Below are positions 36,264 through 64,000 of a stretch of DNA of 64,000 nt, one piece after another. A model generated the notes under the pieces. It was not told the origin of the DNA. It did not search any database and worked only from the letters and a program-made list of their open reading frames with translations. This DNA comes from Rhodocyclaceae bacterium (GTDB taxonomy: Bacteria > Pseudomonadota > Gammaproteobacteria > Burkholderiales > Rhodocyclaceae), in the NCBI GenBank assembly GCA_013426785.1, contig JACDZI010000004.1, forward strand, positions 1 to 64,000, written 5' to 3'. The translations under genes were made by a program, and so were the position numbers. Within the stretch, counting starts at the first letter, position 1. Each line of letters starts with the position of its first letter.

Positions 36264-36689
36264 ATGACAAACGAAACCACGAACGATCCGCTGGACTTCC
36301 TCAAGAACATGTGGGGGAACATGGGGTTCTCGATCCCGGGCATGGTGGCCCCTACCGTCGATACCGACGAATTATCGAAGCGTATCGCCGACCTGAAGGC
36401 GGTCGAGGGCTGGCTGAAGTCGAACCTCAGCCTGTTGCAGATGACGATTCAGGGTCTGGAGATGCAGCGTACCACGCTCAATACCCTGCAACAGATGAGC
36501 CAAGCCGCTCAGAATACCCAGAGCGGCGATGCGGCCACCACCAATCCGTTCCTCAACCCGGCAGCCTGGGGAATACCCTGGAACATGATGGCAAATGCCG
36601 TCCCGCCAGCGCCGACTTCTTCAACGGACGCGGCAAGCCCGGCCGGACAGGCAGCCTCAACCGGCGAGGCTGGCAAGCCAGATCGGTAG
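36264..36689 (+). CDS. PhaM-like polyhydroxyalkanoate granule protein
   Basis: PLDFLKNMWGNMG..IPGMVAPTVDTDELSKRIADLKAVEGWLKSNLSLLQMTIQGLEMQRTTLNTL. Confidence 0.75.
   Translation: MTNETTNDPLDFLKNMWGNMGFSIPGMVAPTVDTDELSKRIADLKAVEGWLKSNLSLLQMTIQGLEMQRTTLNTLQQMSQAAQNTQSGDAATTNPFLNPAAWGIPWNMMANAVPPAPTSSTDAASPAGQAASTGEAGKPDR
36593..36621 (-). repeat. Palindromic dispersed element copy R2 (inside the phaM-like CDS)
   Basis: AAATGCCGTCCCGCCAGCGCCGACTTCTT. Confidence 0.8.
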
Positions 36690-56688: not shown

Positions 56689-58641
56689 CTACAACGGCGG
56701 ATCTAGCTGACTATCCAGCTTGGCAATATCGATAGCTCGCGCATTTCTGATATCAAGTCGTTTTGCCAAGGCAATTTGTTTGCGAGCCTCGCTGAATTCT
56801 CGCATGGCAATCAAAACGGTCACTAGGGAAATTCGGTACTCGATCTCCCGAGGATCAGCTTCTATTGAACGACGAATCGCAGCGACAGCCGCCTCATGGT
56901 TTCGAGCAATATTAAACTGATAGTAGGCGGTAGCCGACAATAGGCGCGCCTTTTCGCGACCCATCATGCGGGGATTGCGGAGTGGGGCTTCAAGCAATGA
57001 CTCGACCTGCACCTTGGTTAGAGGGCAACTAGGCAATGAAAGGCACTGCGCCATGGTAATGAGATGATTATTGACGTTGGCAGGAATGGCCTCTTGCTCT
57101 AGTCTGCGCTCCAATTCCTTGAGCCAGCCGATTTCAAGAGGTTTGCCTAGTGTCATACTCAATCGAATCAGGCCGAAATAACCATTGACATTGTTTTGTT
57201 GAACCAAGGCCGCCGTTTCATAGTATTTGCGTGCGATCGGGTAATTGTTCTCAATCGTCGTCGGATCCAACTGGGACATGTGGACAATCAGATCACCCAT
57301 TTCGACATTTGCTCTCGCCGAAGTAGGATGGTGTCTGACCTCGGTTTCCCACAATTCCTGGCTATCACCCCATGCCGAGGCGCGCACAAAAGTAGTAGCA
57401 GCGAACATTGGGATCAACAGAATGACCAAAGCAAGACGCAGCCGAAGCGTATTTTTGGCAACCAGTGGATTCAATAGCAGATGCAAGACTACCAGTAATA
57501 TGCCGAACATAGGCAGGTAGTTTCTGTGCTCATGAATTAGTTCCAGCGCTAAGAACGAAGACTCCATGGCATGGCCGACCAGAAAGAAAAGCAGACCAAA
57601 TGCGACCAAAGGAATTTTTGACCGCAATAACCATACTGCAACGAATAACCCGAATATCCCTAACATTGCTGGCAGTGTAGTGGGTGGGTCCAGAAGTTGA
57701 CGTGAAATTGCAAAATCATCGTGGTAGATACCCAGCAAACCAGTGTCAGGCAACAGAATCAAGCGTAGATAAAACCAAATGGCTCTTGATTCCGTCATCA
57801 ACCTTTCGGCCAGCGAAAAATCCCTAATCACATAGCCTGCCGATAGCCACTGCGGATGCTGAATCGAATAACTGATAAATATCAGGGTCGGCAATAGGAC
57901 GGAAACCGCAAACAACCCCAACAAAAAATATCTGTCGAGATTCTTTGCCGTGACTAACCTAAATAAAGTAATTTCCGCAACAAGGATCAGAAATGGTAGT
58001 AATGCCCCATTTTCTTTGCTTAACATAGCCAAGGGCAAAAAAATGAACAAGCTACAAAGAACCGCAATAACACCACCACGTTCTCCGTAGTAAAGACGAG
58101 AGCGCCCCCAAACATAACTCACCATGCCAGCAAATGTGAATAGCGCAGCCAGACTGGTCATGCGCTGAACGACATACAGAACGCTGGTCAGGTTAAGTGG
58201 ATGAAGCAACCATAGAGCAGCAACGACGAGCGCCAACCAACCAGGATAGCCAGCAGGAAGTGAGGGTTGGCGAAAATTCCGATAAGCCCCAACGAGTAGC
58301 TTGGTAAGTATGAACACCATCAACCCATTCAGGAGATGAATGAAGAGGTTGGTTATTTTGAAAGGAAAGGGCTCTGGTTTAGTCGATGCCAGATCACCTG
58401 CAAAGAAAAAATTCAGGGCAAAGCTGAACATGCTGAGTGGGCGCTGCAATAGCCCACTACTACCTGATAAAACTGCGCTAGCAAGTTTCTCTATTGTCAG
58501 TTCATCAACCCTCAGATTCTTGTTTCCCAGAATATTCGGGCCATCATCAAAAACAAAGGGGCCGCTAAGTCCCGGAAGGTAAGCCAGAACGCACACACCA
58601 AACATCACTAGCAACAAGAAGTGAGGAATATGGCGATGCAT
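56689..58641 (-). CDS. Polytopic GT-C/TMTC-like membrane protein with C-terminal TPR region
   Basis: YLPGLSGPFVFDDGPNILGN near the N-terminus, multiple TM, TPR-like C-terminus; 650 aa. Confidence 0.6.
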   Translation of the reverse strand: MHRHIPHFLLLVMFGVCVLAYLPGLSGPFVFDDGPNILGNKNLRVDELTIEKLASAVLSGSSGLLQRPLSMFSFALNFFFAGDLASTKPEPFPFKITNLFIHLLNGLMVFILTKLLVGAYRNFRQPSLPAGYPGWLALVVAALWLLHPLNLTSVLYVVQRMTSLAALFTFAGMVSYVWGRSRLYYGERGGVIAVLCSLFIFLPLAMLSKENGALLPFLILVAEITLFRLVTAKNLDRYFLLGLFAVSVLLPTLIFISYSIQHPQWLSAGYVIRDFSLAERLMTESRAIWFYLRLILLPDTGLLGIYHDDFAISRQLLDPPTTLPAMLGIFGLFVAVWLLRSKIPLVAFGLLFFLVGHAMESSFLALELIHEHRNYLPMFGILLVVLHLLLNPLVAKNTLRLRLALVILLIPMFAATTFVRASAWGDSQELWETEVRHHPTSARANVEMGDLIVHMSQLDPTTIENNYPIARKYYETAALVQQNNVNGYFGLIRLSMTLGKPLEIGWLKELERRLEQEAIPANVNNHLITMAQCLSLPSCPLTKVQVESLLEAPLRNPRMMGREKARLLSATAYYQFNIARNHEAAVAAIRRSIEADPREIEYRISLVTVLIAMREFSEARKQIALAKRLDIRNARAIDIAKLDSQLDPPL

Positions 58642-58733: not shown

Positions 58734-59156
58734 TTATTTCTTCGGCCGGTACTTGGCGTCGACAGTTCCGCTCAACGCCCAGTTCAAACCAGCTGTACTA
58801 CAAGTACCCGTATAAACCACAGTTTGACCCGCGCTAACGGCAGTGCCAATGGCTCTGTAGGTGATGGTAATTGTGGGTGCCGCAAGCGAACCGCCAACCG
58901 CAACACCAGACACATGCGTGCCCGAAATGGTTGCGGGAATTCCGAGAGAAGCATTACTCATGGTTGTCGGCGAACCTTCACTACAGGCCAGACCTGCAGC
59001 AGTAATGGCCGGGCTGGCAATGCTCGGACCCTCAGAAACCTTGGCCTTGACGGTGTAATCCTGATAAGCCGGCAAAGCAACGGCAGCGAGAATACCGATG
59101 ATCGCGACGACGATCATCAGTTCGATAAGAGTGAAACCTTGTTGAATCTTGCGCAT
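58734..59156 (-). CDS. pilA: Type IV major pilin (PilA-like), start trimmed to [14 protein letters not shown]
   Basis: Short leader [42 protein letters not shown]. Confidence 0.95.
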
Positions 59157-59203
59157 TTTGTATGTCCTTTCGAAAAGCACTCGGATCGTGCTGTTACACT
59201 TAA

Positions 59204-59220
59204 TGCAATAAACAGGCCAA
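59204..59220 (-). promoter_or_regulatory. Sigma54 (RpoN)-type promoter for the pilin gene
   Basis: Minus strand TTGGCCTGTTTATTGCA; GG and GC spaced 12 nt as in -24/-12 elements. Confidence 0.7.
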
Positions 59221-59313: not shown

Positions 59314-59345
59314 GAAGTGTCGCCGTCCTGCCAGCGCCGACTTTC
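59314..59345 (-). repeat. Palindromic dispersed element copy R8 (ends at the HD-GYP stop codon)
   Basis: GAAGTGTCGCCGTCCTGCCAGCGCCGACTTTC. Confidence 0.85.
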
Positions 59346-60946
59346 TATACCTCATCAATCTGCGCCGGATCGAGGAAGGCCTCCGCATAACGCCGATGTA
59401 TACCCTCGCCCAGGAACACCCCGAACAAGTCCGGGTCGATGTGCCCACCCGCGCTGAATTTGCGCATGATGTTGATCGCCTGCGAGAGCTTCATGCCGGA
59501 TTTGTAGGGACGGTCGCGGGCCGTCAGCGCCTCAAAGATGTCGGCGATGCCCATCATGCGCGCCGGCAATGACATCTGTTCGCGGGTCAGGCCCCGCGGG
59601 TACCCCTTGCCGTCCATGCGTTCGTGATGGCCACCGGCATATTCGGGAACGTGGGTGAGGTGCTTTGGCCATGGCAGGGCTTCGAGCATCTTGATGGTGG
59701 CGACGATATGGTGGTTGATGGTCTCGCGTTCCCTGGCCGTTAGCGTGCCGGCACGAATGGTCAAGTTTTCGATTTCCTCCCCGGTCAGAAAATCGGATTC
59801 GATGCCGGCAGAATTGCGCCAGAGATGTTGGGTGCCGATATCGCGAACGCGCTGCTGGTCTTCCGGATTCATGGCTTCAACACCAATATTGGTGCGCCGC
59901 AGGAATTCGCGCTCATCGTCGAGCTTGCCGAGTTCCTGCATGCAGTCGGCCCAGCAGACGGTTTCGGCACTGGGGTCGGTCTTGGTACGCATTTCCAGCA
60001 GGCGGCGTAGCGTAGCGATCTGGGCATCTCGTTTCAGAACCTCGAAGCGGGTATCGATCAAACCGATACGGTCGTAGAGCGTTTGCAGTTTGGTGGCCTT
60101 GTCGACGACGTGGACAGGGGTGGTCACCTTGCCACAATCATGCAACAGGCCGGCGATCTTGAGCTCGTAGAGATCGTGGTCGGACATCTTGAAACCGGCC
60201 AGCGGACCTGAGTGGGTAGCGTTGACCGCTTCGGCAATCATCATCGTCAGGGCCGGCACCCGCTGGCAGTGACCGCCGGTATAGGGAGACTTTTCGTCAA
60301 TCGCCAGGTTGATCAGGTTGATGAAGGACTCGAATAGTACTTCCAGTTGGGTGATGAGCTGGCGGTTGGTGAGCGCAACGGCGGCTTGCGATGCGAGCGA
60401 TTCGGCAAGCCGCTGGTCCGATAGTGGAAATGGGCGAACCTTGCGTGTTTCTGGCTCGATCGAGTTGATCAGTTGCAACACGCCGATAATCTCGTTTTCG
60501 TGATTTTTCATCGGCACCGTCAGGAAGGCTTGCGAATGGTAGCCAGTCCTTTCGTCGAACCCGCGCGTACCGGAAAAATCGAAGCCGGCTTCGCTGTACG
60601 CATCCGCAATGTTCACTGTCTTGTCATTGATGACGGCATAGACGGCGACCATCGAGTTGTTAGGTGCGCCGCGCTCATCATGGAGCGGCAGGTTCGGAAA
60701 ATTGATTGTGTTGCCCGAGGTACCCCCTAAAGCGATACCCAGAGTATCGTTCCGCACAATCTCGAAACGCAGTGCTTGGCCGTCCTCGGTCACACGATAA
60801 AGCGTACCGCCATCGGCAAGGGTGATGGTCTTTGCAGCCAAGAGAATCTTCTCCAGCAAGCGATCGATATTGCGTTCGCTGGAAAGCGCTGCGCCGATTT
60901 CGTTGAGCCGCTCCAGCCTGTGAAAAAGATCGTCGCTCGAATCCAT
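59345..60946 (-). CDS. GAF + HD-GYP domain protein (putative c-di-GMP phosphodiesterase)
   Basis: LLHDCGKVTTP ... GGHHERMDGKGYPRGL. Confidence 0.9.
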   Translation of the reverse strand: MDSSDDLFHRLERLNEIGAALSSERNIDRLLEKILLAAKTITLADGGTLYRVTEDGQALRFEIVRNDTLGIALGGTSGNTINFPNLPLHDERGAPNNSMVAVYAVINDKTVNIADAYSEAGFDFSGTRGFDERTGYHSQAFLTVPMKNHENEIIGVLQLINSIEPETRKVRPFPLSDQRLAESLASQAAVALTNRQLITQLEVLFESFINLINLAIDEKSPYTGGHCQRVPALTMMIAEAVNATHSGPLAGFKMSDHDLYELKIAGLLHDCGKVTTPVHVVDKATKLQTLYDRIGLIDTRFEVLKRDAQIATLRRLLEMRTKTDPSAETVCWADCMQELGKLDDEREFLRRTNIGVEAMNPEDQQRVRDIGTQHLWRNSAGIESDFLTGEEIENLTIRAGTLTARERETINHHIVATIKMLEALPWPKHLTHVPEYAGGHHERMDGKGYPRGLTREQMSLPARMMGIADIFEALTARDRPYKSGMKLSQAINIMRKFSAGGHIDPDLFGVFLGEGIHRRYAEAFLDPAQIDEV

Positions 60947-60965
60947 ACCATGCCCTCCGGACTAG

Positions 60966-63419
60966 TTACTTGATACAAACTGCGCGCACTTGCTTCATGT
61001 CGGTAATGCCCTGGAGTACTTTTTCCATGCCGTCCTGCTTGAGGGTACGCATGCCGTCTTCGAGTGCCTGGGCTACCAGTTGCGCCACCCGGGCATGCTC
61101 CTGGATAAGCTTCTTTGCTCCATCGGTACCGATCATCAATTCGTGCAAGCCAAGGCGCCCTTTGTAACCCGAGCCACCACAGGCATCGCACTTCGTGTCG
61201 TTTTCACCGGCCACCTTGGCACGATAAAGCGTGAATTCCCCCTTGTTGTTCCCGTACTTTTTCGTCCATTCCTTGTACACCCTTTCGTAGGCGGCCTTGC
61301 CATCGCGCCTGAAGGTTTCCGTATTGGCCAGTTCCTCGCAATACTCGGTAAGGAAGTGCTTCATCTCCGCGGGCGTGGGGATGTAGGCCTGCTTGCATTT
61401 GCCGCATAGACGCTTGGCGAGACGCTGGGCGAGGATGCCCAGCAATGCGTCGGCGAAGTTGAAGGGGTCCATGCCCATGTCGAGCAGGCGGATGATCGAC
61501 TCCGGGGCACTGTTAGTGTGTAGCGTTGCGAATACAAGGTGACCAGTCAGCGATGCTTCGATGCCGATACCGGTGGTTTCGGCATCGCGCATTTCGCCGA
61601 CCATGATGATATCGGGGTCTGCACGCAGAAAGGCTCTCATCACGACTGCAAAATCGAGGCCGGCCTTCTTGTTCACTTGCACCTGGCGCAAGCCTTTCTG
61701 GGTGATTTCGACCGGGTCCTCGGCCGTCCAGATCTTGGTGTCGACCTTATTGAGGTGCTTGAGCACCGAGTGCAGGGTCGTCGTCTTGCCGGAGCCGGTC
61801 GGGCCACAGACGAAGAACAAGCCATAAGGCTTCGAGACCGCCGCTTTCAGGCGCTCCTCGTTGTGCGGCAGCAGGCCCAGTTTGTCCATCGGGATCGGTT
61901 CGCCCGCTGTCAGGATCCGCATCACCACGTCCTCGACCGCACCCGCTGTAGGAATCGTAGCTACGCGCAACTCGATATCAAGCGGGCCGAATTTCTTGAA
62001 CTTGATCTTGCCATCCTGGGGCTTGCGCTTCTCGGAGATGTCAAGATCGCACATGATCTTGATGCGCGCCACCAGCGCGTTACGAAAGCTGTGCGGGATC
62101 TCGATATATTTCTGCAAAGAACCATCTTTGCGAAACCTGATCTGCACCTTATCCTTGCCGATGCCGGGCTCGATGTGGATATCCGAGACACCCATCTGAT
62201 AGGCGTCGATGATGACCTTGTTGACCAGTTTGACGAGTTCGTTGTCAGCCGCCGCCGAAACATCATCCGTCGACCCGGATTCAATTTCATCACCCTCATC
62301 CATTGCTGACAGCAGATCAACAACATCGCTATCATCGGAAAAGCCGACGGCACCGAAGAACTGGTCCACGGTCTGCTTGAATTCGCGATTCGTGGTAACC
62401 CGATAAACGATCTTGCTCTTGGCGAAGATGTTATTCACCACGCGTGAACTCTTGACCTGTTCCGGGTCCATGCACAGGATGAGGATACCCTCGGCCGTGT
62501 CCTCGACTGGAATCCACTGGTTCTGCTCCACATACTCGCGGCGCAGGTTCTTCATCAGATCGATCGGCCTGATGCGTTCCTGCCTGTAGGGTTCGTAGGG
62601 CACGCCGAAAAACTTGGCCAGGGCAGCACCGATAACCGGCACCTTGACCTGGAATTCCGTGATCAGTGCCTCTTCAACGTCGATGTTCTTGCTTCGCGCC
62701 GAGCGGCTGGCAAGATCCATCTCCTGAGGGGAGACCACCGCATCGAGCATCAGGTGGTCGTATTTGGTACGGACCAGCTGGGCCGGCTTGTTGCGCTGGG
62801 CAAAGGCGATCGCCAGGGTTTCGCACAGACCCTTGATGCCCTCCTCCGCAACGCTGGCAAAGGGAACCCCGGCCTTGTTGTTGATAATCTGAACGACCCC
62901 AAGCAACTCGCCGGTCTGGGAATCGATGACCGGCCCCACCAGCATCTGCTTGGTACGGTAGCCGGTGCGCTTGTCGACCCCATGGAGAAAGCGCAGGTTG
63001 GGATTGATCACCTTCAGTTCGGCTTGATCATAGACATCGCGGATATTGACAATCTTTTTCGACAGCGCCACGTTACCGGCGATGCTCTGGTCCGAGATCG
63101 GCAGCTTGAGATCTTTGAACGAGTTGAGTCCGGTCTTGACCTTGGAAATGATCGAGGTCTTGTCTTCACTGATGGCATAGACCGTCAGGCGGTCAGCATT
63201 GAACAGTGCGCAGACATCCTGGGAAAGTTCGAGCATGATCTCGTCAATACTGGAAGTCGCGTGAATCTTGTTCGTCACCGCCTGCAAGTTAGTCGCGTGA
63301 ATCTTGTTCGTCTCCGCCTGCAAGTTCTTGAAGAACGTGAGGCGGGTACCTAGTTCTCCCGCGCTGGCGGGTTCGCCACTGCCCTGATTGACTGAAGCGG
63401 GGCTCAATATCGCGCTCAT
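60966..63419 (-). CDS. GAF-MshEN/T2SSE_N-like-GspE/PilB type secretion ATPase
   Basis: GPTGSGKTTTLHSVLKHLN; GEMRDAETTGIGIEASLTGHLVFATLHTNSA; N-terminal GAF-like region. Confidence 0.9.
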   Translation of the reverse strand: MSAILSPASVNQGSGEPASAGELGTRLTFFKNLQAETNKIHATNLQAVTNKIHATSSIDEIMLELSQDVCALFNADRLTVYAISEDKTSIISKVKTGLNSFKDLKLPISDQSIAGNVALSKKIVNIRDVYDQAELKVINPNLRFLHGVDKRTGYRTKQMLVGPVIDSQTGELLGVVQIINNKAGVPFASVAEEGIKGLCETLAIAFAQRNKPAQLVRTKYDHLMLDAVVSPQEMDLASRSARSKNIDVEEALITEFQVKVPVIGAALAKFFGVPYEPYRQERIRPIDLMKNLRREYVEQNQWIPVEDTAEGILILCMDPEQVKSSRVVNNIFAKSKIVYRVTTNREFKQTVDQFFGAVGFSDDSDVVDLLSAMDEGDEIESGSTDDVSAAADNELVKLVNKVIIDAYQMGVSDIHIEPGIGKDKVQIRFRKDGSLQKYIEIPHSFRNALVARIKIMCDLDISEKRKPQDGKIKFKKFGPLDIELRVATIPTAGAVEDVVMRILTAGEPIPMDKLGLLPHNEERLKAAVSKPYGLFFVCGPTGSGKTTTLHSVLKHLNKVDTKIWTAEDPVEITQKGLRQVQVNKKAGLDFAVVMRAFLRADPDIIMVGEMRDAETTGIGIEASLTGHLVFATLHTNSAPESIIRLLDMGMDPFNFADALLGILAQRLAKRLCGKCKQAYIPTPAEMKHFLTEYCEELANTETFRRDGKAAYERVYKEWTKKYGNNKGEFTLYRAKVAGENDTKCDACGGSGYKGRLGLHELMIGTDGAKKLIQEHARVAQLVAQALEDGMRTLKQDGMEKVLQGITDMKQVRAVCIK
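63255..63326. repeat. Tandem 36-bp duplication (1 mismatch) in the 5' part of the GspE-like gene
   Basis: AGTCGCGTGAATCTTGTTCGTC(A/T)CCGCCTGCAAGTT twice; encodes NLQAETNKIHAT/NLQAVTNKIHAT. Confidence 0.95.
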
Positions 63420-64000
63420 GCGGCTTTTTTCTCCATCGAATTCAGCGATTTCAATCCACCTTCAAGTAGGCAGGCACGCAGGCCGCGTTGCGAAAGGAGA
63501 AAGGCTGCTGCCGAACTGCGTCGTCCCGTCTGACAATAGACAACATACTCGATGTCCCGGCTCATGGTCGGCAATGCGTCACGCAATACGTTCAGAGGGA
63601 CATTCAGCGCGCCGGGCAATCCGTCATGTTGGTACTCGGGCGGGAAGCGCACATCAAGCCAGCATGCACCGGCACCGATACGGCGCATCGCTTCCTGAGC
63701 ACTCACTCTTTGAAGGAGAGGCTCACGCAACAGACGAATAAAATCCGCCCCATCGAGCCGTAACAGTTTACCGTCTGTTTTCATGGTGACGGTGGCGTTG
63801 CGGCTGGTCTCCACAATGAGTGCTTCCTCGCCGAAGGCGTCGCCCGCCTTGAGTTCGGCCAGTTCCATCCTTGCCCCTGCTACCTCGCGCGTCACGCTGG
63901 CCCGACCACGCTCAATCACGTAATAAAAATCACCCGCTTCCCCCTGGCGCACAATGGTCTCACCGGACCGGACCGACTGCGGCCTAAAGCAGGCCAGCAG
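63416..64000 (-). CDS. Cyclic nucleotide-binding + rhodanese domain protein (5' end beyond the window)
   Basis: GETIVRQGEAGDFYYVIERGRASV then rhodanese DVRFPPEYQHDGLPGALNVP...YCQTGRRS; open frame to the window end. Confidence 0.8.
   Translation of the reverse strand: MLACFRPQSVRSGETIVRQGEAGDFYYVIERGRASVTREVAGARMELAELKAGDAFGEEALIVETSRNATVTMKTDGKLLRLDGADFIRLLREPLLQRVSAQEAMRRIGAGACWLDVRFPPEYQHDGLPGALNVPLNVLRDALPTMSRDIEYVVYCQTGRRSSAAAFLLSQRGLRACLLEGGLKSLNSMEKKAA

Follow-up and report, generated by a model that had tools for sequence, protein, structure and literature searches.

Which motor extends the type IVa pili of a bacterium in whose genome a search found no PilB, and could it be an ATPase with an N-terminal GAF domain that is encoded close to pilA? 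This question is raised by one end of the stretch of Rhodocyclaceae DNA analysed here (64,000 nucleotides, hereafter the window). Extension of type IVa pili is usually credited to PilB, a motor regarded as standard and essential. The original prediction, made from the sequence, had described three consecutive minus-strand genes as a signal-gated secretion or pilus ATPase module. The genes are indeed consecutive, with a gap of 19 bp and an overlap of 4 bp, and Pfam assigned to them the predicted domains, namely GAF and HD_5/HD, then GAF, MshEN and T2SSE (the GAF-ATPase), then cNMP_binding and Rhodanese (Table 1). The full product of the last of these genes is 353 aa long, and the gene extends to contig position 64477. 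A tandem duplication of 36 bp, corresponding to 12 residues just before the GAF of the ATPase, was unique to this genome among 19 aligned.

Downstream of the HD-GYP gene the next gene is pilA, at a distance of 188 bp. Since these 188 bp contain a sigma54-like GG-N10-GC element, pilA may have its own promoter, and its transcription may be independent of the HD-GYP and ATPase genes. Right after pilA lies a gene for a probable membrane protein of 650 aa (window 56689-58641) without any Pfam match, followed by glycosyltransferase-like genes; together they possibly serve pilin glycosylation or a surface polysaccharide. A dispersed short repeat, AAGTCGGCGCTGGCgGGACGGC, was also observed at window positions 36602, 40650, 52824, 55458 and 59327 and elsewhere, often at gene ends or within coding sequence (as K-S-A-L-A-G-R-R). 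With as many as 3 mismatches allowed, 9 matches lie in the window, where 0.39 would be expected, and its 13-mer core occurs exactly 16 times in 105 kb from this genome and twice in each of two genus-mate loci.

Table 1. Features of the locus (window positions) and of the chimeric genes upstream of pilC in other genomes (locus positions)
Feature	Position	Strand	Size, residues or basis
GAF-HD-GYP protein	59345..60946	-	533 aa; HDxGK and HHExxDGKGYP intact
GAF domain of the HD-GYP protein (residues 27-192)	60371..60868	-	Pfam, GAF-GAF alignment, PDB relatives
GAF-MshEN-like-T2SSE ATPase, candidate type IVa pilus extension motor	60966..63419	-	817 aa; Pfam, invariant residues
ATPase GAF domain, cNMP type (residues 58-205)	62805..63248	-	R77, T79, D149 and T152 at CyaB2 cAMP-contact positions
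ATPase MshEN-like N1 domain (residues 271-357)	62349..62609	-	Pfam
ATPase T2SSE motor domain (residues 391-811)	60987..62249	-	Pfam
12-residue tandem duplication (NLQAxTNKIHAT twice), N-terminal to the ATPase GAF	63255..63326	-	Alignment, DNA
cNMP-binding and rhodanese gene, cut by the window edge	63416..64000	-	FGEEAL...SRNATV phosphate-binding cassette and rhodanese Cys intact
pilA, major pilin with class III signal peptide	58734..59156 from class III start	-	
sigma54-like element TTGGCCTGTTTATTGCAT (GG-N10-GC) 5' of pilA	59203..59220	-	Consensus match only
Chimeras directly upstream of pilC	L180:3171-5096, L181:4177-6006, L182:3864-5684		

The ATPase belongs to the T2SSE or PilB-GspE superfamily (PF00437, 371.8 bits, cut-off 24.9). 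Across 104 relatives no change was seen in the Lys of Walker A, Glu609, Asp568 or the first three Cys of the zinc site, and the fourth Cys was kept in 103 of them. By curated family cut-offs it is none of PilB (TIGR02538, 472.6 bits, under the cut-off of 675.65), TfpB (NF053534, 375.6 bits, under 850) and the T2SS GspE (TIGR02533, 423.9 bits, under 630.25). The tandem 24-residue MshEN motif for c-di-GMP, RLGxx...G...LxxxLxxQ as defined in PMC5013675, was absent ahead of the motor in an alignment read by eye. An AlphaFold model of the whole ATPase was good for the GAF and N1 parts (pLDDT mostly 70-89) and poor for the motor, where the alignment was shallow, and fold matches were therefore taken from the GAF and N1 parts only. 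The 273 further gammaproteobacterial genomes that were drawn yielded no close homologue, with at most the best three candidates of each being scored. Several other large T2SSE ATPases (G019:C1:472541, 797 aa; G041:C61:26221, 898 aa; G006:C80:15092, 845 aa; others in G028:C43 and G008:C5) have motors 50-60% identical to that of the window ATPase behind different N-terminal parts, and are possibly related motors with different sensors.

The pilus genes of this organism are scattered over the assembly, with pilMNOPQ on contig C34, pilC on C168, pilT/U-like genes on C78 and C14, and pilA in the window. An MSHA-like cluster on C171 carries its own ATPase and platform protein, and a true TfpB, which has no GAF region, is encoded on C110 (912.9 bits, cut-off 850). 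The place that reads pilB-pilC-pilD in the relative G010 reads corC-pilC here. Contig C168 ends just after pilC; a pilB missed through this break was ruled out, because corC lies directly upstream of pilC and two genus-mates with complete or nearly complete genomes have the same order. The platform proteins of this genome are PilC and the MSHA-type one adjoining its own ATPase, with no others, so that the motor of PilC should be TfpB and/or the GAF-ATPase. A role as T2SS motor was rejected, as there is no GspF partner. Of the two roles first proposed for the ATPase, in pili or in secretion, the genome comparison given below points to the former, for type IV pili, rather than to the latter.

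We searched 200 Burkholderiales genomes, 147 of which had a strong PilM, and scored the absence of PilB by cut-off (675 bits). PilB alone was present in 58 of the 147, both ATPases in 36, the GAF-ATPase alone in 50 and neither in 3 (Fisher p=4e-12, on counts that are not phylogenetically independent). Conversely, among the 89 genomes with the GAF-ATPase, PilM was strong in 86 and weak in one. At least two of the three genomes with neither ATPase look like incomplete assemblies: G490 is 67% complete, G488 consists of 680 contigs, and G380 carries a fragment of the GAF-ATPase gene (residues 215-418) on contig C28, taken as a gene cut by the contig end.

The surroundings of pilC, inspected in 29 genomes, retain traces of the missing gene. 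All 20 genomes with the GAF-ATPase and without PilB or a chimera have kept pilC with no intact pilB upstream, and likewise pilD wherever the contig continues; in most of them corC stands in the place of pilB. The same surroundings were seen in G380. In G335 the last 151 codons of pilB remain between corC and pilC. In G368, G411 and G461 the slot between corC and pilC is filled by a chimera of a PilB N-terminus and a GAF-ATPase motor. The first 160 residues or so of these chimeras are 48% identical to PilB, and their motors share 70-74% identity with the window ATPase, 77-81% with the G368 GAF-ATPase and only 40-42% with PilB; in a motor tree they are nested within the GAF-ATPase group. By makeup and place, then, a motor of the GAF-ATPase family has been set directly upstream of pilC behind the N-terminal domain of PilB. 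The GAF-ATPase gene proper is not beside pilC-pilD, being set in an operon with a cyclase and a phosphodiesterase-like gene, and only the chimeras adjoin pilC. They are the strongest sequence evidence for a GAF-ATPase working like PilB.

A different account of the missing PilB would make TfpB the sole pilus motor and assign the GAF-ATPase to another filament or to a secretion system. For Pseudomonas fluorescens A506 it has been suggested that TfpB may be the only motor (PMC8213720), and the present genome has a true TfpB. However, the association between PilB and the GAF-ATPase holds both in TfpB-positive (p=2e-8) and in TfpB-negative genomes (p=4e-4), and TfpB had no link with PilB loss once the GAF-ATPase status was fixed (p=0.47 and 1.0); this stratified table ruled out TfpB as the explanation of PilB loss. 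Moreover, the GAF-ATPase is the only one of these three ATPases in 12 PilM-positive genomes, the present genome offers no second free GspF/PilC platform, and the chimeras of three other genomes lie directly upstream of pilC. We therefore regard this account as improbable. We are just as sceptical of an ordinary T2SS/T4P-like ATPase with incidental neighbours, in which case the pattern of PilB loss would reflect nothing but lineage history. On the ATPase gene tree, genomes of like PilB status group together and 3 state changes suffice for 22 genomes, as such a history would have it; but in six families PilB is present in some GAF-ATPase genomes and absent from others, the gene order around the ATPase is kept across many families, and no clear loss of PilB was found among the 61 PilM-positive genomes without the GAF-ATPase. 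The role of extension motor is strongly supported by comparative genomics, and the GAF-ATPase is very probably a type IVa pilus extension motor.

The GAF domain points to the signal that this motor might read. Its first matches among solved structures were the cyclic-nucleotide GAFs of CyaB2 (1ykd), PDE2A, PDE10A and PDE5/6, and the fold matches of the modelled domain also include the cAMP-bound GAF of Lcd1. The nucleotide contacts of CyaB2, R291, T293, I308, D356 and N359 (PMC4411481), correspond to R77, T79, V94, D149 and T152 of the ATPase, and the equivalents of R291, T293 and D356, used as the test of contact residues, are all present. Among the 104 relatives R77 and D149 are invariant, T79 is kept in 101 and T152 in 102. 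The full NKFDE motif is absent: N180 and F187 are invariant and K/R is usual, and the Asp occurs in none of the 104 relatives, which mostly have A, V or M. In PDE2 the binding of cGMP depends on this Asp, which is also important in the GAFs of other PDEs (PMC11977230). From the residues and the neighbouring genes we infer that cAMP is the ligand, and, given the role of extension motor, control of the ATPase by a cyclic nucleotide is likely.

The two GAF domains of the window are 24% identical in a pairwise alignment (E=1e-9). The motif first described as common to both is literal in the HD-GYP protein; the ATPase has TGYRTKQML, with the Q one place later and an extra loop residue. The proposal that both sense the same ligand is not supported by the contact residues: where the ATPase and CyaB2 have the base-contacting Arg, all 84 relatives of the HD-GYP protein carry Gly or Ala in their GAF. 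The best PDB relatives of this second GAF are likewise cNMP GAFs (PDE5). The HD pair and HHExxDGxGYP were found in 81-83 of the 84 relatives of the HD-GYP protein, the remainder being unaligned there. Between its HD and GYP parts, at residues about 285-400 (window about 59749-60094), visual comparison with the usual HD-GYP layout suggested an insert of ~100 residues.

The contig extends to position 77170, and further genes of the operon lie beyond the window. The cNMP/rhodanese gene shares 4 bp with an overlapping MBL-fold gene matching the class-II cAMP-phosphodiesterase family (PF02112, 48.7 bits, cut-off 23.7, over the N-terminal metal-site part only). HxHxDH is present in its product, with metal ligands kept in 84-85 of 85 relatives, and the protein is predicted to be class-II cyclic-nucleotide phosphodiesterase-like. 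Upstream of it there follow, in order, a CHASE2-Guanylate_cyc gene, FHA, PP2C, an ornithine-cyclodeaminase-like gene and sucDC. The relatives have, ahead of PP2C, a gene for a CHASE2-Ser/Thr kinase. The cyclase (PF00211 and CHASE2) passes the residue test for class IIIb adenylate cyclases, its two metal Asp, Lys/Thr purine pair and Asn/Arg being present in 76 of 76 relatives; we take the Lys/Thr pair as the sign of an adenylate cyclase among class III cyclases. With the cyclase and the phosphodiesterase-like gene upstream, the trio in the window is the tail of a cyclic-nucleotide operon. Its genes are real, as originally predicted, but the unit is larger. The idea of a signal-gated pilus ATPase module is supported by the cyclic-nucleotide type of the GAF and by this operon with its adenylate cyclase and class-II phosphodiesterase-like enzyme.

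Intact relatives have the order CHASE2-Ser/Thr kinase, PP2C, FHA, CHASE2-adenylate cyclase, MBL, (cNMP/rhodanese), GAF-ATPase, GAF-HD-GYP and pilin, and in 20 genomes of the family the series runs, with some losses, from sucCD through kinase, PP2C, FHA, CHASE2-cyclase, MBL, cNMP/rhodanese, ATPase and HD-GYP to pilA. FHA and the ATPase are kept in all 20, and the cyclase is beside the ATPase in 14. Neighbours were counted over 58 well-flanked loci from 80 named ones (Rhodocyclaceae, Gallionellaceae, Nitrosomonas, Oxalobacteraceae, Chitinimonas and others), giving MBL 48, PP2C 44, FHA 44, HD-GYP 42, cyclase 41, kinase 40, PilA 29 and cNMP/rhodanese 18. By these counts the strict trio is mostly confined to Rhodocyclaceae and near kin, and the wider conserved unit is the ATPase with MBL, cyclase and HD-GYP. 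The original prediction had named a lack of conservation of the trio as the finding that would speak against it, which holds for one half: the HD-GYP gene is a common neighbour, but the cNMP/rhodanese gene is not. The latter encodes the least conserved operon member; the phosphate cassette of its CNBD is intact in nearly all relatives. In Nitrosomonas and some Duganella MBL alone remains beside the ATPase, the ATPase locus of the genus-mates G019 and G479 has no kinase, cyclase, MBL or cNMP/rhodanese gene, and several Oxalobacteraceae have no gene of the operon set there. Where no cyclase adjoins the ATPase, as in G019, G479, Nitrosomonas and Duganella, another source of the ligand is needed.

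Just past the window edge, on contig C76 at about 67474-69020 (L008:9475-11020), the operon is decaying in this genome. The kinase gene has shrunk to about 60 codons, its start being joined in frame to its end; an in-frame internal deletion has taken about 90 codons out of the PP2C gene, those of the DGMGG metal motif among them; and the FHA gene is in two frames, split at an A-run one base longer than the proteins of genus-mates imply, which may be a sequencing error. The cyclase, MBL, CNBD (cNMP/rhodanese), ATPase and HD-GYP genes are intact. The kinase arm of the operon seems dispensable.

We propose that the GAF-ATPase would form its own family of motor, in which a cyclic-nucleotide GAF has replaced the N-terminal docking or c-di-GMP region of the PilB type, and which would supplement PilB or, as in this genome, have taken over from it. 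cAMP would be made by the CHASE2-type class III adenylate cyclase of the operon and removed by the class-II phosphodiesterase-like MBL protein. The GAF of the motor would read it and gate pilus extension through PilC, switching it either on or off. The cNMP/rhodanese protein and the GAF-HD-GYP phosphodiesterase, to judge from their domains, might tie cAMP to a redox or sulfur signal and to c-di-GMP, and in most relatives the CHASE2 Ser/Thr kinase, PP2C and FHA proteins would provide a phosphorylation input.

An extension motor replacing PilB could also be regulated through these FHA, kinase and phosphatase genes, its GAF no longer binding a cyclic nucleotide and serving as a structural or protein-interaction domain or sensing another ligand. 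The loss of the NKFDE Asp in all relatives would fit, as would the presence of FHA beside the ATPase in all 20 family genomes, against 14 for the cyclase. We nevertheless hold it to be unlikely, since the base-contacting R77 and D149 are invariant, the cAMP-phosphodiesterase-like MBL gene is the commonest neighbour, and it is the kinase, PP2C and FHA genes that are broken here while the cyclase, MBL and CNBD genes are intact. That the ATPase is a type IVa extension motor gated by a cyclic nucleotide, replacing or supplementing PilB in many betaproteobacteria, is rather probable. To the full reading, a third family of type IVa extension motors, restricted to betaproteobacteria in our sampling, gated directly by cAMP through its GAF, and having made PilB dispensable several times, we give a probability of roughly 0.55.

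Each known system resembles the proposed one in part. PilB (TIGR02538), at whose N-terminus PilZ docks, has the same N1-N2-motor layout, zinc tetracysteine, Walker motifs and apparent place in the pilus machine, with the chimeras at the pilB locus. The GAF-ATPase differs from it by a motor only about 40% identical, an insert of about 50 residues between the zinc Cys pairs, the extra N-terminal GAF and a cAMP operon instead of pilBCD. TfpB (NF053534), the second extension motor of Acinetobacter baylyi (PMC8213720), is likewise a phylogenetically distinct extension ATPase encoded apart from pilC, but a separate true TfpB without a GAF region is found in this genome. As in the MshE/PilF-type ATPases, which are gated by c-di-GMP via MshEN (PMC5013675), an N-terminal domain of the motor would read a second messenger, here a cNMP GAF instead of RLGxx...LxxxLxxQ. 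The GAFs of CyaB2, PDE2A and PDE10A are the closest relatives in sequence and fold, with the equivalents of R291, T293 and D356 kept; the ATPase GAF has lost the NKFDE Asp and is joined to a pilus motor rather than to a cyclase or phosphodiesterase. cAMP also promotes type IV pili in the Pil-Chp/CyaB/Vfr system of Pseudomonas aeruginosa, where it acts through Vfr transcription (PMC11656802), whereas here it would act at the motor. In the open-access literature searched, second-messenger control of PilB was found only for c-di-GMP (MshEN, FimX/PilZ) or cAMP-Vfr transcription (PMC11656802). A 2024 review of PilB control does not mention GAF, and the same literature yielded no account of an extension motor that bears a GAF or is gated by cAMP.

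About a third of the sampled PilM-positive Burkholderiales have the GAF-ATPase in place of PilB, and a pilB missing from an annotation should not be taken to mean that functional pili are lacking. With the chimeras at hand, docking to PilC and sensing of the signal could readily be assigned to separate parts of the motor. If direct gating by cAMP is true, it would be a third route of pilus control beside transcription through Vfr (cAMP) and MshEN or FimX (c-di-GMP), and cAMP would set pilus growth at the motor, and not via transcription, in a large share of piliated betaproteobacteria.
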